Of a stretch of 51,334 nucleotides of DNA, positions 1 through 39,588 are shown piece after piece. A model generated the notes under the pieces. The model worked only from the letters and a program-made list of their open reading frames with translations, was not told the origin of the DNA and ran no database searches. Numbering within the stretch: position 1 is the first letter of the stretch; every line of letters begins with the position of its first letter. The position numbers and the translations under genes are program-made. Source of the stretch: Oceanivirga salmonicida (lineage in GTDB: Bacteria; Fusobacteriota; Fusobacteriia; Fusobacteriales; Leptotrichiaceae); assembly GCF_001517915.1 (NCBI RefSeq), contig NZ_LOQI01000003.1:1-51334 (forward strand), read 5' to 3'.

Positions 1-52
1 AAAAAAAAAAAATGAAATAATAGATAAATTAAAATTCACAATCTAAAAAAAT

Positions 53-105
53 ATCACTCAAATTCGGCTATACATATTGTATTGGCTTAGTTTGAGTGAT
101 TTTTT
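53..105. terminator. Bidirectional hairpin terminator at window edge
   Basis: A perfect 10-bp stem (53-62 with 91-100, arms ATCACTCAAA and TTTGAGTGAT) encloses a 28-nt loop and is followed by a T-run at 98-105. An A-run just upstream (46-51) would give a T-run on the other strand, so it could stop transcription both ways. It probably ends a plus-strand gene lying outside the window. Confidence 0.6.
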
Positions 106-133
106 GTTGCGAAACTTGGGTTATAACTGAATA

Positions 134-166
134 GAAAAAAATAGAGATTTTAATATCTCTATTTTT
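134..166 (-). terminator. Terminator of the M24 peptidase gene
   Basis: Read on the minus strand, an 8-bp stem (141-148 with 155-162, arm ATAGAGAT) with a 6-nt loop is followed by a T-run (134-140). The stop codon of the peptidase gene (159-161) lies inside the stem. Confidence 0.7.
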
Positions 167-1223
167 CATATTTAGTAAGTACCATACAACCATCTTTGGT
201 AACTACTATATCATCTTCTATTCTAACTCCTGCAACACCAGGTTTATAAATTCCAGGTTCTATTGTAAATACCATGTTTTCCTCTAATATGTCATCAGTA
301 CTTTGAGAAACATCTGGAAATTCATGTACTTCCATACCAAGACCATGTCCTAATCTATGAGTGAAATATTCTCCATACCCACCTTCTGTTATAATGTCTC
401 TTGCAATTTTGTCAATCTCGCTAAATTTCATACCTGGCTTACAAGCCTTAATTGCTTCCATATTGGCTTTTTTGACTAATTCGTATATAGTTTTAGCTTC
501 ATCGCTAACTTTTCCAAATTCAAAGGTTCTAGTCTCGTCTGAGGCATATCCTTCATACCATACACCTAGGTCAAATAGAGCATAGTCTCCTTTTTTTAAT
601 TTTGTAGTGCCACTTTCTCCATGTGGATTAGCAGCATTTTTACCAAACAATACTATAGTATCAAATGACATAGATTTAACACCTAATTTTTTCATTTCAA
701 ATTCTATTATAGATTTTAGTTCTAATTCAGTGATGCCTTCTCTTAAATTATTTTTAGCAATATCAATTGCTATATCAGATAACCTTGTTGCTTCAATTAA
801 CTTTTCTATTTCATCACTAGACTTATATTTTCTCATATCTGCAATTAGATTATCACATTCATTAAATGATTTAATTTCAAATATTTTTTGTATTCTTTCT
901 AATCTATCAATAGTTAAATGAGTTTTTTCAAGTAGAACATTTTCTAATTTACCTGTAAGTTTAAATAAATTAGCATAACCATCTTCTGTGTCAAGATAAG
1001 AAGTTAAATCTAATTTAACTCTTAGACTACTTTTTGCACTTTCAAATTCCATTGCAGGAACTAATAAAGAGATTTTATCTTTACCAATAATAAGTGCTAA
1101 TAATCTTTCGTGTGGATCACAACTAAAACCTGTTAAATAATATATATTAGTAGGTTTAGTAATTATTGCAGCATCTATATTTTTTTCTCTTAATATTTTT
1201 TGTATATATTTAATCTTTTCCAT
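159..1223 (-). CDS. M24 family aminopeptidase (Xaa-Pro aminopeptidase/prolidase-like)
   Basis: This 354-residue protein has the creatinase-like N-terminal region and the C-terminal pita-bread metallopeptidase fold of the M24 family, which removes N-terminal residues next to proline in the cytoplasm. The five expected metal ligands are visible: Asp218 and Asp229 (in FDLG and SDETRT), His293 (in HRLGHGLG), Glu322 (in TIEPG) and Glu336 (in RIEDD). The start is set at 1223 because AGGAG lies 5 nt upstream. A longer reading from 1262 would translate a terminator hairpin. It follows the outer-membrane gene at 1270 but is separated from it by that hairpin. Whether it is an Xaa-Pro aminopeptidase or a dipeptidase cannot be told from sequence alone. 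Confidence 0.9.
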   Translation of the reverse strand: MEKIKYIQKILREKNIDAAIITKPTNIYYLTGFSCDPHERLLALIIGKDKISLLVPAMEFESAKSSLRVKLDLTSYLDTEDGYANLFKLTGKLENVLLEKTHLTIDRLERIQKIFEIKSFNECDNLIADMRKYKSSDEIEKLIEATRLSDIAIDIAKNNLREGITELELKSIIEFEMKKLGVKSMSFDTIVLFGKNAANPHGESGTTKLKKGDYALFDLGVWYEGYASDETRTFEFGKVSDEAKTIYELVKKANMEAIKACKPGMKFSEIDKIARDIITEGGYGEYFTHRLGHGLGMEVHEFPDVSQSTDDILEENMVFTIEPGIYKPGVAGVRIEDDIVVTKDGCMVLTKYEK

Positions 1224-2020: not shown

Positions 2021-2942
2021 TTTTATCAATAATAGTTTTTAGAATTTTTTTTGAATTATTTAATTTTTCTTGTTCCGCTTTGCTAAACTCTGGACATATT
2101 TTCATGACTTGTCCATTTCTGCCAACAATGTTTGGAACAGAATAATATATATTATCAATAGGGTTATATGTAGAGACTGTTAATATAGATTTTTCATCTC
2201 TTAATATAGCACCAACAATTCTATTAACTGCTAAGCCTATTGCATAGTTTGTATATCCTTTTTTCTTAATAATTTCATATGCAGAATTTTTTACTGACAT
2301 TTCAACAGAATTTTTCAATTCATCTAGTTCTATATTTTCTCTTTTACAATATTCATCAATAGATAATGGACCAATGCTAAGAGATGACCATACAGCAAAT
2401 TCACTATCTCCATGTTCACCTATTATATAACCATGTATGCTTCTTGGATCTAAATCAAATATTTTTGCCAAATTATATTGTAATCTAGAAGTATCAAGTA
2501 CAGTACCACTTCCTATTACTCTATTTGCAGGAAAGCCAGATAATTTATATGTTATATATGTTAATATATCAACAGGGTTAGAAACAACTAATAATATTGC
2601 ATTAGGAGAATATCTCACAATTTGTGGTATCATTTGTTTAAAAATTGATAAATTTTTATTTATTAAATCTAACCTAGTTTCTCCATCTTTTTGTCCTGCA
2701 CCAGCAGTAATTATTACTATATCTGAATTAGCAGTATCTTTATAATCTCCTGCAATAATTTCAGTTGATTTAAAAAATGCAGCACCATGTGCTATGTCTA
2801 ATGCTTCTCCCATAGCCTTATCTTTGTTAATATCAACTAATACTATATTAGATGCTATACCAGTTTCTGCTATTGAAAGTGTAGTAGCAGAACCTACAAA
2901 TCCCGCTCCTATAATTGAAATCTTATTTGTCCTTTTCATCAT
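2010..2942 (-). CDS. ldh: L-lactate dehydrogenase
   Basis: This 310-residue NAD-dependent dehydrogenase interconverts pyruvate and L-lactate, regenerating NAD+ in fermentation. Visible signatures are the N-terminal dinucleotide-binding glycine motif GAGFVGS, the substrate loop GQKDGETRLDL and the active-site IIGEHGDSEFAVWS with the catalytic His. Gln in GQKDGETR marks lactate rather than malate specificity. The length is normal for bacterial LDH. It lies 54 nt downstream of the orphan ABC ATPase and may share its transcript. A strong purine-rich Shine-Dalgarno (AAAGGAGAAGTAGG) sits about 28 nt before the ATG, unusually far; no better in-frame start exists because of a TAA between them. The next Met codon (2939) is an equally possible start. 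Confidence 0.93.
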   Translation of the reverse strand: MMKRTNKISIIGAGFVGSATTLSIAETGIASNIVLVDINKDKAMGEALDIAHGAAFFKSTEIIAGDYKDTANSDIVIITAGAGQKDGETRLDLINKNLSIFKQMIPQIVRYSPNAILLVVSNPVDILTYITYKLSGFPANRVIGSGTVLDTSRLQYNLAKIFDLDPRSIHGYIIGEHGDSEFAVWSSLSIGPLSIDEYCKRENIELDELKNSVEMSVKNSAYEIIKKKGYTNYAIGLAVNRIVGAILRDEKSILTVSTYNPIDNIYYSVPNIVGRNGQVMKICPEFSKAEQEKLNNSKKILKTIIDKIDF

Positions 2943-2996
2943 ATTTTTGTATGCTAAATCTCTTTAACCTACTTCTCCTTTCACCTTTTTATATAC

Positions 2997-3623
2997 TTAT
3001 TTTTTAATATCTAATGTAAAAACTCTATCTGAAATATGTTTTACAAGATTTATATCATGAGATATGAAAATAAAAGTTGTAAAAAAGTTTTTGTTAAAAA
3101 ATTTTATTAAATTTATAATTTGTTCTTGTGTGCTTAAATCTAATGCAGAAAGTGGCTCATCGCATATGATTAATTTGGGGTTTGAAATCATTGCAGCCCC
3201 TACAACAACCCTTTGTCTTTGTCCCCCTGATAAATCAGTAGGGTATTTATTTTTGTAATCCTCTAATAAAAGTATTTTTAACATATCATCTACTTTTTCA
3301 TCAATATTTTCTATATTATTGACTATTAAAGGTTCTTTTAATATGTTCTCGACTGTAATTGCTTCATTAAGTGAAGTGTATGGATCTTGAAATATCATTT
3401 GTATATCAATTATTTTTCTTTCAGAAATATCTTTATTTTCAAATATTATTTCTCCACCATCTTTTTTTTCAATTCCCATAATTATTTTTGCTATTGTAGA
3501 TTTACCTATACCTGACTTACCTATAATTGAAAATATTTCTCCTTTTTTTACATTAAATGAAACATTTTCAAATATATATTCATTATTAAATTTTTTGCTT
3601 AAATTTTTAATTTCTAATAACAT
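2997..3623 (-). CDS. ABC transporter ATP-binding protein, peptide/nickel (OppF/DppF) type, orphan
   Basis: The 208-residue protein is a single ABC ATPase domain with Walker A GKSGIGKST (about residues 35-43), Q-loop FQDPYTSLN, signature LSGGQRQR, Walker B LIICDEPLSALD and switch His in ISHD. The FQDP(Y)TSLN Q-loop is typical of the oligopeptide/dipeptide/nickel importer ATPases. It is clearly shorter than OppF/DppF (about 320 residues) and lacks their C-terminal oligopeptide-binding extension. No permease or substrate-binding protein is encoded nearby, so its partners must be elsewhere or missing. AAAGGAG precedes the ATG by 7 nt. The gene is followed by ldh. Confidence 0.88.
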   Translation of the reverse strand: MLLEIKNLSKKFNNEYIFENVSFNVKKGEIFSIIGKSGIGKSTIAKIIMGIEKKDGGEIIFENKDISERKIIDIQMIFQDPYTSLNEAITVENILKEPLIVNNIENIDEKVDDMLKILLLEDYKNKYPTDLSGGQRQRVVVGAAMISNPKLIICDEPLSALDLSTQEQIINLIKFFNKNFFTTFIFISHDINLVKHISDRVFTLDIKK

Positions 3624-3686
3624 GGTTGTTCTCCTTTAATATATTATACTCAATTTAAGGGAAATATAAAAGGATTTTATGTAAAT

Positions 3687-3709
3687 AAAAAAGGCACAAT
3701 GCCTTTTTT
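3687..3709. terminator. Terminator after the OmpA-family gene
   Basis: AAAAAAGGCA (3687-3696) and TGCCTTTTTT (3700-3709) form a hairpin with a 3-nt loop and T-runs on both strands. Its main use is probably to end the minus-strand transcript of the gene at 3721-4842. Confidence 0.75.
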
Positions 3710-3720
3710 ATAAATTTTTA

Positions 3721-4842
3721 CTATTTAACTAATTCAGAGAATTTTAATTCAACACGTCTATTCATGTATCTTCCTTGTTTAGTCTTATTAGTAGCAGCTG
3801 GTTCTAATTCACCTTTACCAGTAATGCTATTAACTTTAATAGAATTACTTAATCCGTATTTTTGTAATAACATAGTTATTTGTTTAGCTCTTTCAACAGA
3901 TAATTTTTGGTTGTATTTAACTGATCCAGTAGCATCAGTATGTCCAACTACGTCTATATCACCTGATACAGCGAAATTATTAACCATATCTACGATTTCT
4001 TTTAAGTTCTTTTGTTCTTGTGCATTTGGCACTCTACCATCAACTTTAAATCCATATATAGTACAGATTTTAGTTTCTGATGAACAATTACCATGTATGA
4101 AATCTGGTCTTTCAACTTCAACTATAACTGGTTCTTCAACTACAGGTACAACTGGTTCTGGTGTTGGTTCAACAATTGGTTCAACAACTATTGGTTCAAC
4201 AACAACTGGTTCAGGTTTAACTACTTCTTTTTGAACAACTGGAGCTTTTTTAATGAATGATCCTAATCTAAGACCTACTCTAATACCAACTTTGTTGTCA
4301 AATGCTTTATTTCCAGCAGCCTTTAAGTCTTTTGGAGTGAATCCACCATCATATAATAATTCAGCAACTAATGCGTTGTATTCAACACCAAGTCCTAAAC
4401 CATAGTAAAGACCTGGTTTAAATGGATCTCCTACTTTTTCTCTTGAAGCCATTCCACCTAATCTACCTACAACATAAGCTGCAGCGTCATCTTTTTTATT
4501 TCTCCAAAAATTAAGATGTGTTACCGCATAAATAGGTATGAATTCTTTTTCATTTTTAGCAGTAGTACCTTTTTTAAATAATACTTCTGGTCCAGAATTG
4601 TAGTGTAATGATTTATAACCGAAGTTATATTCAGCACCTACCCCTAATTCAAATACACCTGTGTCTATAGGTATAATTTCAGTTCCTAATGTGAACCCCA
4701 TACCGTTAGTATTATCTAACGATGGTTTTGTTGCAAATTTAACGTGATCTCTATATGCGTCGAAACCTGTTTTAACGTTCCATTCCCACGCGAATGTGTT
4801 CATGGCTGCAAATGTTAATGCGATAATCGCTATTTTTTTCAT
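3721..4842 (-). CDS. OmpA family outer-membrane protein with peptidoglycan-binding domain
   Basis: The 373-residue precursor has a signal peptide (MKKIAIIALTFAAMNTFA), a beta-barrel region (about residues 19-200) and a Pro/Val/Glu-rich linker (about 205-245, repeats of VVEPIV). A conserved Cys pair (NCSSETKIC) precedes a C-terminal OmpA domain (about 265-373). That domain shows DIDVVGHTDATGSVKYN, ERAKQI and NRRVEL, holding the Asp and Arg that bind diaminopimelate or its equivalent. By analogy with OmpA proteins it anchors the outer membrane to the wall. It has its own near-consensus promoter and its own terminator, so it is likely abundantly expressed as a single gene. The exact barrel topology is not determinable here. 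Confidence 0.88.
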   Translation of the reverse strand: MKKIAIIALTFAAMNTFAWEWNVKTGFDAYRDHVKFATKPSLDNTNGMGFTLGTEIIPIDTGVFELGVGAEYNFGYKSLHYNSGPEVLFKKGTTAKNEKEFIPIYAVTHLNFWRNKKDDAAAYVVGRLGGMASREKVGDPFKPGLYYGLGLGVEYNALVAELLYDGGFTPKDLKAAGNKAFDNKVGIRVGLRLGSFIKKAPVVQKEVVKPEPVVVEPIVVEPIVEPTPEPVVPVVEEPVIVEVERPDFIHGNCSSETKICTIYGFKVDGRVPNAQEQKNLKEIVDMVNNFAVSGDIDVVGHTDATGSVKYNQKLSVERAKQITMLLQKYGLSNSIKVNSITGKGELEPAATNKTKQGRYMNRRVELKFSELVK

Positions 4843-4898
4843 ATTTTTCCCCCAATTCTAAATATATTTACATACATTTGTTTAATATACTCTGATAT

Positions 4899-4927
4899 AT
4901 TATATAACAAAAATTGTTAAAAATCAA
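4899..4927 (-). promoter_or_regulatory. Promoter of the OmpA-family gene
   Basis: On the minus strand TTGATT (4922-4927), a 17-bp spacer and TATAAT (4899-4904) match the same pattern found upstream of the 1270-1932 outer-membrane gene. It is divergent from the mnmA promoter. Confidence 0.7.
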
Positions 4928-4936
4928 CTTAAAATG

Positions 4937-4945
4937 TGGTATAAT
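4937..4945 (+). promoter_or_regulatory. Extended -10 promoter for mnmA operon
   Basis: TGGTATAAT is an extended -10 element 43 nt before the mnmA start. A TTGTTA sits 20 bp upstream (4914-4919), a long spacer, so the extended -10 probably carries recognition. Confidence 0.5.
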
Positions 4946-4987
4946 AAAATTAAATAAATAATATTTGAGTTAGGAAACAGTGAAAGT

Positions 4988-6073
4988 ATGAATAAAAAAG
5001 TAGTGTTAGGAATGTCTGGCGGGGTAGATTCATCAGTGGCAGCAGTGATTTTAAAAAATCTTGGATACGAGGTTATAGGGGTATTCATGAAAAATTGGGA
5101 AGAAAAAGATGAAAATGGAATTTGTACTAGCGAAATTGATTATGCAGATGCAATGAATGTTGCTGAAAATTTAGGAATACCATTTTATTCTGTTAATTTT
5201 GTAAAAGAATATGCAGACAGAGTATTTAGTTATTTTTTAGATGAGTATAAAAAAGGAAGAACTCCAAATCCAGACGTAATGTGTAATAAAGAAATAAAAT
5301 TTAAAGCATTTTTAGAATATGCATTTAGTTTAGGTGCTGATTATGTAGCAACTGGGCATTATGCTAAGGTAATGCATACAGATAAGGGAAGTATTTTATT
5401 AAGGGGTATAGATGATAATAAAGATCAATCATATTTTTTATCTAAATTAAGTAGTGAGCAGTTAGAAAAGGTAATTTTTCCATTGGGGGATTATACTAAA
5501 CCTGAAATAAGAGAGATTGCAAAAAAAAATGGATTAATAACGGCTAATAAAAAAGATAGTACAGGAATATGTTTTATAGGAGAGAGAAATTTTAAAGAAT
5601 TTTTAAATAACTATTTACCGAATAAAAAAGGGAATATAGTAGATGAAAAAGGTAAAATTTTAGGAACTCATGATGGACTTATGTACTATACTATAGGACA
5701 AAGAAAAGGTATAGGTATAGGAAATACAAAAGATGGTAATGGAAAGCCTTGGTTTGTTGCTTATAAAAATTTAGAAAAAAATGAATTGGTGGTATCACAA
5801 GGAAATACTGATATCTTATATTCAAAAGGTCTTATAACTAATGACTTTGAATTAATTAATAAAGAAATAGCAAGTTTCCCCCTAAGATGCACAGTTAAGT
5901 TTAGATATAGACAAGATGACGTTTCTGCTATAATTACAAAAGAAAATGGGAAACATATAGTTATGTTCGATGAAAAACAAAGAGCGGTAACGGAAGGTCA
6001 AATAGTTGTCGCATATTTAGGGAATATTTGTATAGGTGCGGGAGCAATAGATAGTATAATAAAAGGAGATTAA
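4988..6073 (+). CDS. mnmA: tRNA-specific 2-thiouridylase MnmA
   Basis: MnmA installs the 2-thio group on the wobble uridine of tRNAs Lys, Glu and Gln, using ATP and a persulfide relayed from a cysteine desulfurase. The 361-residue protein shows the PP-loop SGGVDSSVA near residues 10-18, the first catalytic Cys99 in [11 protein letters not shown] and the second Cys195 in STGICFIGE, all as in the family; length is normal. It is the first gene of a run of closely packed plus-strand genes reaching 15923, many of which also act on RNA. Substrate tRNAs Glu and Gln are encoded at 40538 and 39677 in this window. AGGAAAC about 11 nt before the ATG is the likely ribosome-binding site. Confidence 0.96.
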
Positions 6074-6075
6074 GT

Positions 6076-7863
6076 ATGTTTTTTGGGTTTTTTGGCAAGA
6101 ATAAAAATGAAAAGATTGAAGAAGTTAAAGAATATTTAAATATTATAGATGAAGACGGAAAAGAAATTACTGTTGAAAAAAAAGAATGGTTAGCTACTGA
6201 GTTTTATCCATATATAGAAAACAATATTAATAATGATGAAGAAATATATAATATGGTTAATTTAGCAATGGAATATGGTGTAAAATATGAAGTTTTAGAG
6301 CCAAGTTATAAACTATATATTAAAGATAAAAGTGTAAATAAAAACGTTTGTCTTTTATTTAAAGCATATAGAATTAATAAAATGAATGATGAAGCAGTAG
6401 ATTTATATGAAGAATACATGAATGATGGAAATGATTTGAATTGTTTCATGTATTATGATTTGGCTTTAGCACAAGAAGAGTTATCGAGATATGATATGGT
6501 TGAAAAAAACTTATTCTTAGCATTTACTAAGAACAACAACTATATTAAAGTAATAGATAAATTAATGGATTATACTAGTAAATTTTTAGAACCTGATAAA
6601 TATTATGAATGGTTAAAAGATTTAAATGATACTTCTAGTTCTTGGTATTTGAGTAAAGAATTGGCAATATTACAATTTGAAAAAAAATTATATGGAGAGG
6701 CAACAAATAATTTATTAAAAAGCCTTAGTTTGTGTTCGAATAATGAAAAAAATGTTATTATTATAGCTAAATTATTATTAGAAAATAATAGATTAAATGA
6801 ATTTGAAAATTGTATTTTACCTAAATATGATATAAATACTAGTGATATTAATTTTCATAATATAGTTCAAAAATTTTATTTCAAGGATAAACAATATAAA
6901 AAAGGTTTAGATTTATTAAAAGAAATATATTTAACAGGAAAATATGATGAGATATTTGTTCAAAATGAAAAATTATTTTTAAAATCTAAATTATTAGAAC
7001 AAGATAAGAAAAAGTATGCTAGATTGGTTAGTGGTATAGCTTCACCTAAGGCTAGATTTAATCCACTTTTTGCACCTATATACACTAAGCAATTAAATAT
7101 GAAAGTTAAAGAAAAAACAGGACCAAAATTTATATTTTTAGGATTTACAACTAATGGAGAAGTTGGAGAATATTCCGAAAACTTGAAGGGAATAGTTAAA
7201 AATATTTCTTCATATATATGTGATTTATTGTATTTTAATTCAGATATATCAATAAATAATGCCTTCTTATATGATGATTTAGGACCGGTATTAAAGCGTG
7301 GAGAATATAAAGATGAGTATTTCAAAAAAATAAAAGAAAGTAATCCTGATATGGAATATGTAATAACAGGAGAAATTTTTGAAGTAGATTCAAATGGAGC
7401 ATTTGATATTAGATTTTATACATATAATTTTGAGATGGATCAAAGATTACAACTTTATTTAACTACTACTTCTGAAAATGGCTTATATGAAGTAATATCT
7501 AAATTTTTAAATGTTATTATTAATAAGATGCTTGATATCAATGTAGAAAGTGTAAAAATAACAGATAAAAAATTCTTAGAAATATATACGGATTATGTAG
7601 AAATATTTTTAAATGTAAATAATGATAATGAAAATAAAGTATATACTACTGATAAGATAATTAGATATTGTTTAAATAATCCTAGTGAATATAAAGTAAA
7701 TATAGCATTATCTACAATACTTACTCAAAGTGAGTACTTCCCTGAAATTAAAGAGAATTATAAACAAAAAATATATGATATTATAACTTTAAATAATATG
7801 ACATATAAAGATTTAATGAGTAATTTTGAATTTGTATACGGAGAAATAAATGAAGAAGCTTAA
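6076..7863 (+). CDS. Unknown protein with tetratricopeptide-like helical N-terminal half
   Basis: I do not recognise this 595-residue protein. It has no signal peptide or membrane segment; the extreme N-terminus (MFFGFFGKNKNEK) is hydrophobic but short. Residues about 60-320 read as repeated amphipathic helix pairs with alternating Leu/Tyr/Ala, like degenerate TPR units. A second part (about 350-490) begins after GPKFIFLGF and contains predicted alternating beta strands (VITGEIFEVDSNGAFDIRF). Its ATG lies 2 nt after the mnmA stop with AAAGGAG 7 nt upstream. Its last 14 nt overlap the next gene, so the two are translationally coupled and probably work together. Confidence 0.75.
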   Translation: MFFGFFGKNKNEKIEEVKEYLNIIDEDGKEITVEKKEWLATEFYPYIENNINNDEEIYNMVNLAMEYGVKYEVLEPSYKLYIKDKSVNKNVCLLFKAYRINKMNDEAVDLYEEYMNDGNDLNCFMYYDLALAQEELSRYDMVEKNLFLAFTKNNNYIKVIDKLMDYTSKFLEPDKYYEWLKDLNDTSSSWYLSKELAILQFEKKLYGEATNNLLKSLSLCSNNEKNVIIIAKLLLENNRLNEFENCILPKYDINTSDINFHNIVQKFYFKDKQYKKGLDLLKEIYLTGKYDEIFVQNEKLFLKSKLLEQDKKKYARLVSGIASPKARFNPLFAPIYTKQLNMKVKEKTGPKFIFLGFTTNGEVGEYSENLKGIVKNISSYICDLLYFNSDISINNAFLYDDLGPVLKRGEYKDEYFKKIKESNPDMEYVITGEIFEVDSNGAFDIRFYTYNFEMDQRLQLYLTTTSENGLYEVISKFLNVIINKMLDINVESVKITDKKFLEIYTDYVEIFLNVNNDNENKVYTTDKIIRYCLNNPSEYKVNIALSTILTQSEYFPEIKENYKQKIYDIITLNNMTYKDLMSNFEFVYGEINEEA

Positions 7864-12346: not shown

Positions 12347-12907
12347 ATGAGAAAAAGAATATTAACAATATTATTGATGTTTTTAGGTTTAATGAGTTTT
12401 GCAAAAAAACCAATAGATTATATATCTGCTGGTAGAGTTCAAATGTTTAATGGTGAAAAATATGAACTAAGATTTAGTTATAATCCTATAAAAGATTATT
12501 TTAAACAAGAATATAATAGAAAAGAGGACCAATCTCCTAATTATGTTAAAATGATAATTATAGATATTTTAAAAGTATCTGAAAATGAAAAACTTTCTGA
12601 TATTGTAGCGGTTAAATATAATAGTTGGAAAGAACAAGGACTATTAAAATATTTTAAGGTTTTAAGTGAAAGCGAAAATGAGATAATATATGAGTTTATA
12701 TTAAATTCAAATGAAATTCATGAGTATAATATATACAGAGAAAAAATTACAAATGGTTATCTTGTTTTATATGCTTATTCACAAAGAGGCTATATACATA
12801 ATGAAAAAGAATTTAATGAATATAAGGCTAAAATAATAAAAAATAAAGATGATTTGTTTAAAAAAATTAAAGAAGTTAAATTGCCAGTTGTAAAGATTAA
12901 AAAATAA
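12347..12907 (+). CDS. Secreted or periplasmic protein of unknown function, tandem copy 1
   Basis: The 186-residue precursor starts with a signal peptide ([19 protein letters not shown]) with likely cleavage after SFA. The mature part opens with the motif [20 protein letters not shown] and ends [12 protein letters not shown]. Both are shared almost exactly with the next gene, while the middle (about residues 45-165) is divergent. No known domain was recognised. AGGAGG precedes the ATG by 6 nt. It follows dhaM by 30 nt with no terminator between them. Confidence 0.7.
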   Translation: MRKRILTILLMFLGLMSFAKKPIDYISAGRVQMFNGEKYELRFSYNPIKDYFKQEYNRKEDQSPNYVKMIIIDILKVSENEKLSDIVAVKYNSWKEQGLLKYFKVLSESENEIIYEFILNSNEIHEYNIYREKITNGYLVLYAYSQRGYIHNEKEFNEYKAKIIKNKDDLFKKIKEVKLPVVKIKK

Positions 12908-12926: not shown

Positions 12927-13496
12927 ATGAGAAAAAGAATATTAACAATATTATTAATGTTTTTAGGCTTAATTAGTTTTGCAAAAGATAAAGAACCAAT
13001 AGATTATGTGTCTGCTGGTAGAGTTCAAATGTTTAATGGTGAAAAATATGAACTTAAATCTAGTTCAAATCCAGTAAAAAATTATTATAGACAAGAATAT
13101 ATAAAAAAAGATGAAAAATTACCTGAATTTGAAAAAATTATAATGATTGAAAGTTTTAAAGCCAAAAAAAATGAAACTATTCAAAATGCTGCTAATGCAA
13201 TTACTACTTCTTGGAAGAAATCAGAAGGTTTGATATATTTTAATATTATAGAGGATAGTAAAAATAAAGCTATTTTTGAGAGTATATTAATTTTTAGAGA
13301 TAAAGTATGGGAATATAGTATATATAGATTGGAAATGCAAAAAGAAAACATGGTTTTATATGCTTATAGATATAGAGGTAATTTGAAAAATGAAAAATTA
13401 TTTGAACAATTTAAGTTTGAAGTATCAAAAAATAAAGAGGATTTTATACAAAAAGTTAAAGAAGTTAAATTGCCAGTTGTAAAGATTAAAAAATAA
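12927..13496 (+). CDS. Secreted or periplasmic protein of unknown function, tandem copy 2
   Basis: The 189-residue paralogue of the preceding gene has the same signal peptide ([19 protein letters not shown]) and the same first mature block ([20 protein letters not shown]). A divergent centre follows ([16 protein letters not shown] aligns with NSWKEQGLLKYFKVL), then an identical C-terminus ([12 protein letters not shown]). AGGGGG replaces the AGGAGG of copy 1 as ribosome-binding site. The 19-nt gap between copies is itself part of the repeat. The pattern suggests a tandem duplication with fast central divergence or later conversion of the ends. Function unknown. Confidence 0.7.
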
Positions 13497-25919: not shown

Positions 25920-25952
25920 AGTAGTAGAGATTTTCACCTTTACTACTTTTTT
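25920..25952 (+). terminator. Terminator of the lipoprotein gene
   Basis: AGTAGTA (25920-25926) pairs with TACTACT (25941-25947) around a 14-nt loop and runs into six T residues. Confidence 0.7.
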
Positions 25953-25961
25953 AATGAAATT

Positions 25962-25990
25962 TTGACAAATAGTATGTTAATGTGTAAGAT
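25962..25990 (+). promoter_or_regulatory. Promoter P1 of the mevalonate-groESL operon
   Basis: Perfect -35 TTGACA (25962-25967), 17-bp spacer and -10 TAAGAT (25985-25990). Transcription would start near 25997, giving a leader of about 100 nt before the small ORF. Confidence 0.6.
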
Positions 25991-26064: not shown

Positions 26065-26107
26065 GTAGCTATAAATGCAAATATAAATTAAAGAAGGAGT
26101 GATTAAA

Positions 26108-26278
26108 ATTAATAAAATAAAGTATATCATAGATCATAAAATGTTAGAAAAACTATGTAATAGAAATTTAGTAATTTTAGAATCTGTATTTAAAGAAAAT
26201 ATATTTATAAGCATAGCAAAACAAATTAGTGTTTTTGCTAATAATGAACAAAGATTAAGCATAATGATAGGTAGGTAA
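26108..26278 (+). pseudogene. Small ORF with ATT in place of ATG; possible remnant or leader before mvaS
   Basis: AAGGAG (26094-26099) is followed after an ideal 8-nt gap by ATT, then 55 further sense codons and TAA at 26276-26278. The ribosome-binding site of mvaS is made by its last codons. An in-frame GTG at 26099 overlaps the Shine-Dalgarno; the first ATG is 26141 and has no site. The peptide (INKIKYIIDHKMLEKLCNRN, then LVILESVFKENIFISIAKQI) loosely resembles the N-terminal KH-like region of PhoH-family ATPases, whose ATPase part is absent. It could be a gene fragment whose ATG mutated to ATT, a functional ATT-started peptide, or a translated leader. I cannot decide between these; the PhoH link is inference from memory. 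Confidence 0.4.
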
Positions 26279-26282
26279 TAAA

Positions 26283-27392
26283 ATGAAAATAGGTATAGAT
26301 AGAATAGGAATACATGTTCCAAAATATTATTTAGATATAGAGAATTTAGCAAGTGCTAGGGGAGTAGACCCTATGAAATTTACTAAAGGGTTATTACAAA
26401 AGAAAATGGCAGTAACACCTATTAGCCAAGATATAGTAACAATGGGTGCTATGGCTGCTAATAAAATATTAGATAAAAAATTAAAAAAAGAAATAGATCT
26501 TTTAATAGTAGGAACTGAAACAGGAGTAGATCAATCAAAGTCAGCAAGTATATTTATACACTCTCTTTTAGGATTAAATCCGTTTTGTAAAACTTTTGAA
26601 ATTAAACAAGCATGTTATGGAGCAACTGCTGCATTACTTTATGCAAAAGACCATATAAAAACTCATAAAAATTCTAAAGTTTTAGTAATTGCTTCTGACA
26701 TTGCTAAATACGGAATAAATACAGGTGGAGAATCAACGCAAGGTGCTGGTGCAGTCGCTATATTAGTAACTAATAATCCAAGTATTGCTGAAATAGAGGA
26801 TGAAACAGTATGTTATACAGAAGATATTATGGACTTTTATAGACCTAATAAATCTGATTATGCATTAGTAGATGGGAAATTATCAAATGCCATGTATTTG
26901 AAAGCATTAGATATGGTATATAATAAATATATAGAACTAGGTTATAATACTGATTTTAAAGATATATGTTTTCACATCCCATACCCTAAATTAGGAATTA
27001 AGGGATTAAGACAAATAAGACCTGATTTAGAGTATAAAAATGATGATGCTATAAAATTAAATTCTGAAATAGGAAATATTTATACAGGTTCTCTATTTTT
27101 AAGTTTTTATTCTTTAATTTCTAACTCAAATGAATTAAAAACTGGGGATAGAATAGGAATGTATAGTTATGGTTCAGGTGCTATTGCAGAGTTTTTTGCT
27201 GTCAAATTATGTGATAATTTTAAACAGGAAAAACTTGATTTAAGTAATAGAATAGAATTAAATATAAATGAATATGAAAATATGTTCTTTAAAGAATTAG
27301 AAGAAGATATAGAATTTGAAAATTATGCTAATGAAAAGATATATTTAAAAGGTGTATTTGACACTAAAAGGAAGTATGCGATAAATGAATAA
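26283..27392 (+). CDS. mvaS: Hydroxymethylglutaryl-CoA synthase
   Basis: MvaS condenses acetyl-CoA with acetoacetyl-CoA to HMG-CoA, the first committed step of the mevalonate route to isopentenyl diphosphate. The 369-residue protein shows the catalytic triad: Glu79 in VGTETGVDQSKS, the acyl-carrying Cys111 in IKQACYGATAAL and His231 in ICFHIPYPKLGIKG. Length is close to other bacterial MvaS proteins (about 385). It heads the operon and starts 4 nt after the small ORF, with TAGGTAGG as ribosome-binding site. No acetoacetyl-CoA thiolase gene is in the window. Confidence 0.96.
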   Translation: MKIGIDRIGIHVPKYYLDIENLASARGVDPMKFTKGLLQKKMAVTPISQDIVTMGAMAANKILDKKLKKEIDLLIVGTETGVDQSKSASIFIHSLLGLNPFCKTFEIKQACYGATAALLYAKDHIKTHKNSKVLVIASDIAKYGINTGGESTQGAGAVAILVTNNPSIAEIEDETVCYTEDIMDFYRPNKSDYALVDGKLSNAMYLKALDMVYNKYIELGYNTDFKDICFHIPYPKLGIKGLRQIRPDLEYKNDDAIKLNSEIGNIYTGSLFLSFYSLISNSNELKTGDRIGMYSYGSGAIAEFFAVKLCDNFKQEKLDLSNRIELNINEYENMFFKELEEDIEFENYANEKIYLKGVFDTKRKYAINE

Positions 27393-38356: not shown

Positions 38357-38968
38357 ATGAAAAAAATATTTTTTATATTATTATTTAGTTTAGTTAGTAA
38401 TTTATTTGCATTAAATAATAATATAGGAGAAATTAATTTGAAAGCAGGAGTAATATTTAAAAGAGAACCTGATTTAAATGAACCATATAATTATTGGGGA
38501 ACAGCGTATTCTTTTGTTCAAATTGGAGAATTAGAATACCTATATCCAGTATATAGATCTAAAAATAATGAGATTATAAAAATTGGAGGAGGACTTCAAA
38601 CTTGGTTTCAACTATATGATGCCCCAAGAAAAAATACTCAAAAATCTGCAAAAATATCTATATCTCCAATTTTTACAGCAGTTATAGAAAAAGAAATAAA
38701 AGAAAATTTAAGTATTTATGGTGGAGTCAGTGTTGGAGCGGGGCCTCATTTATTAACAGTTTTTAAAGATAAAAAACAAAATAAAAAAGGTTCGATAACT
38801 GTAAGGCATGGTTTCCCATTATATGGTAAATTTGGTGTGAAATATAATAACTTTATTATAGAATCACAAGCAGGAGTGTATATTGCAAAATATATAAGAG
38901 AAGTTGATAATATAAATACATATAAATATATAGCAAATGTTGGAGTATTATTTGGGTACTCATTTTAA
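38357..38968 (+). CDS. Small outer-membrane beta-barrel protein, paralogue B1
   Basis: The 203-residue precursor has a signal peptide (MKKIFFILLFSLVSNLFA) and the family motif series GELEYLYPVYRS, IGGGLQTWFQL, PIFTAVIEKEIKENLSIYGGVSVGAGPH, GFPLYGKFGVKYNNFIIESQAGVYIAKY and the C-terminal VLFGYSF with terminal Phe. It matches the genes at 19199 and 19863 in order and spacing of these motifs, and its tandem neighbour more closely. A TAG at 38342-38344 rules out an upstream extension. Function unknown. Confidence 0.7.
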   Translation: MKKIFFILLFSLVSNLFALNNNIGEINLKAGVIFKREPDLNEPYNYWGTAYSFVQIGELEYLYPVYRSKNNEIIKIGGGLQTWFQLYDAPRKNTQKSAKISISPIFTAVIEKEIKENLSIYGGVSVGAGPHLLTVFKDKKQNKKGSITVRHGFPLYGKFGVKYNNFIIESQAGVYIAKYIREVDNINTYKYIANVGVLFGYSF

Positions 38969-38988: not shown

Positions 38989-39588
38989 ATGAAAAAAATA
39001 TATATAACATTATTAACAGTAATATTATCAGGAATTGTATTCGGATTGCCAAATACTGATGGAGAAATTAATTTAAAGGCAGGGGTTAATCTTAGAATAG
39101 ACCCAGATTTGCGTGAACCAATATTGTATGTAGGAACATCCATTCTTTTTTCTGAAAATTTAGAATTAGAATACTTACATCCTGTGTATAAAATAAATTC
39201 TAAAACTGATTTAAAAATAGGTGGTGGATTACAAAATTGGTTTATGCTTTATGAAGTTGATGGTAAAAAAGCTCAAACTTCACTTAAATTTTCAGTAGCA
39301 CCTGTTGTTTCATCAATAATAGAACATAATATAAATGATAATACAAGTATTTATGGTGGTGCTAGCATAGGTATAGGGATAAGATCTTGGGTAGCGTTTC
39401 CAAATGAATTTCAAAGACCATTTAAATCGGGAATAACTTATGGAATACCTATATATGGTAAATTTGGAGTAAAATATAAGAAATTTTTAATAGAATTACA
39501 ATCAGGAGTATATATAAGTAAATTTAGAGATAAAAATTTTCATAGATATGTTGGAAATATAGGAGTAGTAGTAGGTTATTCATTTTAA
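38989..39588 (+). CDS. Small outer-membrane beta-barrel protein, paralogue B2
   Basis: The 199-residue tandem partner of the preceding gene has a signal peptide (about 1-19) and shares GEINLKAGV, PDL-x-EP, LELEYLHPVYKI, IGGGLQNWFMLYE, NDNTSIYGGASIGIGI, GIPIYGKFGVKYKKFLIELQSGVYISKF and VVVGYSF at the C-terminus. GGAAAGG lies about 8 nt before the ATG, a normal site unlike that of B1. It ends the unit at a strong hairpin terminator. Confidence 0.7.
   Translation: MKKIYITLLTVILSGIVFGLPNTDGEINLKAGVNLRIDPDLREPILYVGTSILFSENLELEYLHPVYKINSKTDLKIGGGLQNWFMLYEVDGKKAQTSLKFSVAPVVSSIIEHNINDNTSIYGGASIGIGIRSWVAFPNEFQRPFKSGITYGIPIYGKFGVKYKKFLIELQSGVYISKFRDKNFHRYVGNIGVVVGYSF

Follow-up and report, generated by a model that had tools for sequence, protein, structure and literature searches.

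An eroded, internally deleted thiolase gene probably precedes mvaS in the mevalonate operon of Oceanivirga salmonicida

Directly in front of mvaS, the HMG-CoA synthase gene of Oceanivirga salmonicida, lies a small open reading frame that has a Shine-Dalgarno (SD) sequence and begins with ATT where an ATG would be expected, which raises the question of whether it is a gene fragment, a rarely initiated gene or a translated leader. We analysed it within a window of 51,334 nucleotides (contig NZ_LOQI01000003.1, positions 1 to 51,334). The layout described in the first-pass annotation is exact: AAGGAG is separated by an 8-nt gap from ATT at 26108-26110, and the 56 codons, ATT included, end at the TAA at 26276-26278, 4 nt before the mvaS ATG at 26283. 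Another TAA comes immediately after this stop.

26094..26099, + strand: SD AAGGAG, read from the sequence (duplex -8.8 kcal/mol)
26108..26278, + strand: 56-codon frame from ATT to TAA, probably an eroded, internally deleted acetyl-CoA acetyltransferase relic (synteny, profile chain and DNA chain)
26283..27392, + strand: mvaS, HMG-CoA synthase (TIGR01835, 446 bits against a cut-off of 360)

The SD is ordinary to strong, ranking 11th among 36 starts in the window, and is properly spaced from the ATT, with no better canonical start at hand. Two neighbouring codons had been missed earlier, an in-frame GTG at 26099-26101, which overlaps AAGGAG, and a second ATT at 26102. The GTG is badly placed because it sits on the SD itself, and its own upstream pairing amounts to -1.0 kcal/mol, compared with -8.8 for the ATT at 26108. 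Elsewhere in the window, two tandem pairs of paralogous small genes (12347-12907 with 12927-13496, and 38357-38968 with 38989-39588) have signal-peptide-like starts, including MKKIF.. and MKKIY...

Two elements lie 5' of the frame.

25920..25947, + strand: intrinsic-terminator-like hairpin closing the upstream transcription unit (10-pair stem and T run)
25962..25990, + strand: candidate promoter of the mvaS operon, TTGACA-17-TAAGAT (consensus scan, 10/12)

Shuffled sequences are expected to contain 0.0 sites like the hairpin; promoter-like sites numbered 11 against 6.9 expected, so the candidate is weak by itself. Since the terminator-like hairpin and the promoter-like site both precede the frame, ribosomes on the mvaS transcript would probably meet it before any other translatable unit.

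Is the frame a gene fragment at all? It is longer than base composition would lead one to expect: when the segment was dinucleotide-shuffled, a fraction of 0.0004 of the sequences had at least 56 open codons from the ATT, and the fraction was 0.0017 when the upstream intergenic DNA was shuffled. Its codon-usage score falls between those of genes and intergenic DNA and below nearly all genes. The peptide matched nothing in Pfam, NCBIfam, PHROGs or PDB, thiolase profiles included, and its matches within the family were at chance level. The blank searches and the poor codon usage would suit an open frame that arose by chance in AT-rich intergenic DNA, behind a fortuitous SD, and was never a gene. 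This explanation is nevertheless very improbable, given an open-frame probability of about 0.001 or less, the synteny with a lost gene and the significant matches at both ends, which are described below. A faint resemblance to the N-terminal KH-like part of PhoH proteins had also been proposed. That impression is all that speaks for a PhoH remnant, the likelihood of which is next to nil: neither a PhoH nor a KH profile matches the peptide, the PhoH domain (PF02562) is absent from the whole 1,768,580-base genome and clearly present in only a few members of the family, and none of the relatives' mvaS neighbourhoods that we examined contains phoH.

The position of the frame points to a different gene. 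A short acetyl-CoA acetyltransferase (thiolase) stands directly 5' of mvaS in the relatives G019, G027, G028, G001 and G029-G032, the first of which is Oceanivirga miroungae ES3154-GLU, the sole other species of the genus in the comparison; scans for mvaS in genome and viral contigs returned no Oceanivirga mvaS locus besides that of O. miroungae. The thiolase of these relatives is about 354-370 a.a. long, either overlaps mvaS or stops 0-8 nt short of it, and is the only thiolase that each of them has. The O. salmonicida genome has no intact thiolase before mvaS. Its two thiolases (402-405 a.a.) are unlinked to the operon and belong to another type, sharing 87% identity with one another and about 45-50% with the operonic type. 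Because the gene that precedes mvaS in relatives is absent and only thiolases of the other type occur elsewhere, the operonic thiolase is missing here. The order of the genes 3' of mvaS, named from their sequences and not by profile (mvaA, mevalonate kinase, decarboxylase, phosphomevalonate kinase, isomerase, groES, groEL), is the same in the window, G028, G027 and G001, and its first three genes are kept in O. miroungae. The 56-codon frame, placed directly before mvaS where the relatives' acetyl-CoA C-acetyltransferase sits, fills the exact slot of the missing gene.

Several further observations were made at these loci. One long thiolase ends an atoDAEB-looking operon behind pfl/pflA (L059, O. 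salmonicida genome G000:C58:4000-10533, 2435-6365), and the second stands alone (L060, G000:C30, 6361-7578). At the start of the latter locus (1-778, minus strand), after pnp, are three tandem, near-identical ORFs of 70-78 a.a. that resemble single S1 domains, and the pnp product beside them ends with a similar S1-like domain. In two other genomes, mvaS lies within an 826-a.a. open frame, possibly a fusion with the next gene (G012:C1:1927519-1928679, L035), or is split into two frames (G013:C1:270198-271300, L042).

Free local alignment of the peptide with single thiolases gave p = 0.03-0.14 and landed consistently on residues 35-75, elsewhere in the protein. With no more than this, and with the database searches blank, the case for a thiolase rests on the synteny and on comparisons anchored at the two ends of the frame. 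Three blocks were distinguished, one at each end and a possible one in the middle.

26079..26124, + strand: start block, apparently the 3' end of a lost osmC-like gene, then the initiation site (SD and ATT) and opening codons of the lost thiolase (alignment to O. miroungae)
26160..26196, + strand: possible middle block, LVILESVFKE against thiolase LGKLKPVFKE (30/38 alignment columns)
26228..26275, + strand: end block, SVFANNEQRLSIMIGR against the thiolase C-terminus ..LCVGGGQGISILIER (anchored at the stop)

At the 3' end, with the alignment anchored at the stop, the frame agrees with the thiolase C-terminus over its final 9, 12 and 16 residues to a degree reached in 0/20,000 shuffles (p<5e-5), and among about 1145 real frames none surpassed the end block at N=9 or 12; we take the C-terminus to be homologous over N=9-16. 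At the DNA level, the last 60 nt are identical to those of G027 at 33/60 positions with zero offset relative to the mvaS ATG (p ~0.001), and the end block matches G027 and G028 only.

At the 5' end, 36 of 44 aligned bases in 26079-26124 are identical to the start region of the O. miroungae thiolase (L049:5669-5712), a region that takes in the last codons of the preceding osmC-like gene. The score of this alignment, 24, compares with 11.9 (sd 1.9) for shuffles and was reached by none of 5000 shuffles and none of 116 other real gene starts, whose maximum was 18; some 13,650 other 100-nt tiles scored at most 22. As a calibration, the intact orthologous start regions of mvaA and mvk score 39-41 and that of mvaS scores 20, so that a score of 24 is in keeping with an orthologous site under erosion, and we take the start region to be homologous. 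Among the relatives compared, the start block matches O. miroungae only, and a whole-genome BLAST of the block in that species returned many better chance matches in AT-rich DNA; the weight of the block as evidence therefore depends on synteny, which fixes where it lies. Compared with O. miroungae, the reading frame is shifted by a 2-nt difference that lies just behind the start. No signal of an osmC relic was detected farther upstream, before 26079, and the O. salmonicida genome has no intact copy of the osmC-like gene found ahead of the thiolase in O. miroungae. A weak match to that gene elsewhere in the genome (G000:C55:7520-7645, L153 and L157; 38% over 42 a.a., four stops) is possibly a dead copy.

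Between the two ends, the middle block contains the exact 13-mer CTGTATTTAAAGA in the same frame, with p=0.08 when taken alone, and is no more than suggestive of a thiolase scrap. Residues 35-75, favoured by the free alignments, were rejected as its source, as the DNA-level chain and the comparison with O. miroungae point elsewhere in the gene (LKPVFKE). When the whole frame was chained end to end to the thiolase through free internal deletions with both ends anchored, the protein-level chain gave p=0.002-0.017. The DNA-level chain was matched by 0/200 shuffles for O. miroungae and G027, which was not so for G028, G001 and G030.

Taken together, the frame is very probably what internal deletion and erosion have left of the thiolase gene that once opened the mevalonate operon, with an inherited ATT. 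The first-pass suggestion of a gene fragment was thus right, by synteny and by both ends, and the conserved reading frame that it would have sought in relatives is there only in part: the peptide has no conserved counterpart, and its two ends match the thiolase. With the operonic acetyl-CoA C-acetyltransferase (TIGR01930) the frame has in common the place before mvaS, the initiation region, the C-terminal residues and the position of the stop; it differs in lacking about 900 bp, in a reading frame shifted near the start by the 2-nt difference and in the loss of the catalytic motifs. In place of the catalytic-Cys motif LC[IV]GGGQG stands VFANNEQR (GGGQG to NNEQR), the 56 residues contain neither GHP nor CxGGGxG, and no Pfam Thiolase_N or Thiolase_C match was obtained. 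The loss of the catalytic motif marks the frame as a relic, and, judged from its residues, it is without thiolase activity and cannot be a thiolase.

The history that we propose begins with a thiolase as the first gene of the ancestral mevalonate operon. This gene probably became dispensable because the two unlinked AtoB-type thiolases can presumably make acetoacetyl-CoA. It would then have lost about 900 bp of its interior and eroded, leaving the initiation site (SD and ATT), a possible scrap of the middle and the last codons, which end 4 nt before mvaS.

How did the ATT come to stand at the start? A start-codon mutation that disabled the gene had been considered, and this idea finds no support in the comparison with O. 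miroungae, in which the intact thiolase has ATT at the aligned position. Its start reads AAGGGG TTGAGTAAA ATT AAT AAT AAA GTA: the ATT follows the SD AAGGGG (-7.5 kcal/mol) by 9 nt, and the only canonical codon, a TTG, abuts the SD. If its first codon is taken to be the ATT, this protein and the GTG-started thiolase of G027 have N-termini of equal length. The window repeats the O. miroungae layout: a canonical codon (GTG) sits on the SD, the ATT follows the SD by 8 nt, and the stretch TAAAATTAAT is shared without a difference. Across the relatives, with the genus represented by two species, the start codon is GTG in G027 and G028, ATG in G001 and TTG in G030. Since ATT is aligned in the intact gene of O. 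miroungae, the ATT is probably ancestral, inherited from a working thiolase gene, and the O. miroungae thiolase plausibly starts at AUU.

Genes initiated at AUU include infC, pcnB and cvfC1, and the AUU or AUA start of infC serves the autoregulation of IF3. A rare ATT start of the infC kind, another of the first-pass suggestions, gained support: in O. salmonicida infC reads GGAGG-8 nt-ATT-AAG-GGA (L155, G000:C56, about 183-201), and AUU initiation at the frame is plausible because infC in the same genome has the same 8-nt spacing between SD and ATT. The two differ in that infC encodes a conserved essential protein and the 56-codon frame does not. In O. miroungae, infC has ATA 8 nt after GGAGG (L156, G019:C1, about 189-207). 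In both Oceanivirga infC genes a GTG sits on the SD. In Staphylococcus aureus, AUU and AUA starts with strong SDs yield about 10-30% of the expression from AUG (PMC13009471). There, cvfC1 is an AUU-started first gene of an operon, encoding 61 a.a. at about 10% of the AUG level; ribosome profiling demonstrated its initiation, and staphylococci have the start in common (PMC13009471). Both cvfC1 and the present frame are small and first in an operon, with an SD and an AUU/ATT start, whereas the cvfC1 start is backed by ribosome profiling and the AUU start of the frame, a probable relic, is a candidate one.

Finally, we considered whether the frame passes ribosomes to mvaS, as in the translated leader of the first-pass annotation, with which the distance to mvaS is compatible. 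Coupling needs very short distances, and termination-reinitiation is possible at the 4-nt spacing found between the TAA at 26278 and the ATG at 26283 (PMC10666635). The SD of mvaS itself is moderate (-7.3 kcal/mol, against -3.4 in O. miroungae), with no stable structure over it, so that coupling would be less needed. The fold of the leader RNA is not unusual (z=0.47), and no Rfam match worth the name to a leader element or riboswitch was found.

A functional AUU-started leader ORF, selected to stay open and handing ribosomes to mvaS, would keep expression of the mevalonate operon low and IF3-sensitive, and could itself be built from the thiolase relic. The strong SD duplex, the spacing shared with infC, the distance to mvaS, the rarity of so long an open frame and the cvfC1 precedent (PMC13009471) are all consistent with such a leader. 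We nevertheless consider it unlikely, as the peptide is not conserved, no unusual RNA structure or Rfam family accompanies it, and mvaS has an SD of its own that is stronger than in O. miroungae. In addition, the openness of the frame is less surprising than the shuffles suggest, because most of it descends from stop-free coding DNA, and for this reason we dropped openness as proof of selection. The best reading is that the relic is non-functional and that its initiation site may still load some ribosomes; if active at all, it would do so at a low, AUU-limited rate and pass them to mvaS by termination-reinitiation. A bolder combination is more doubtful still, namely that the operonic thiolase of Oceanivirga is translated from AUU, which would bring this start to a new kind of gene, and that in O. 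salmonicida, after the loss of the enzyme, selection has retained the AUU site and the last codons as a translated, IF3-sensitive leader coupled to mvaS.

The locus illustrates that an orphan small ORF invisible to profile searches can be named by synteny and end-anchored tests; the analysis also disposed of an attractive but misleading idea, that of a PhoH fragment with a mutated start codon. If the O. miroungae thiolase does start at AUU, a metabolic enzyme would join the few genes known to have this start.
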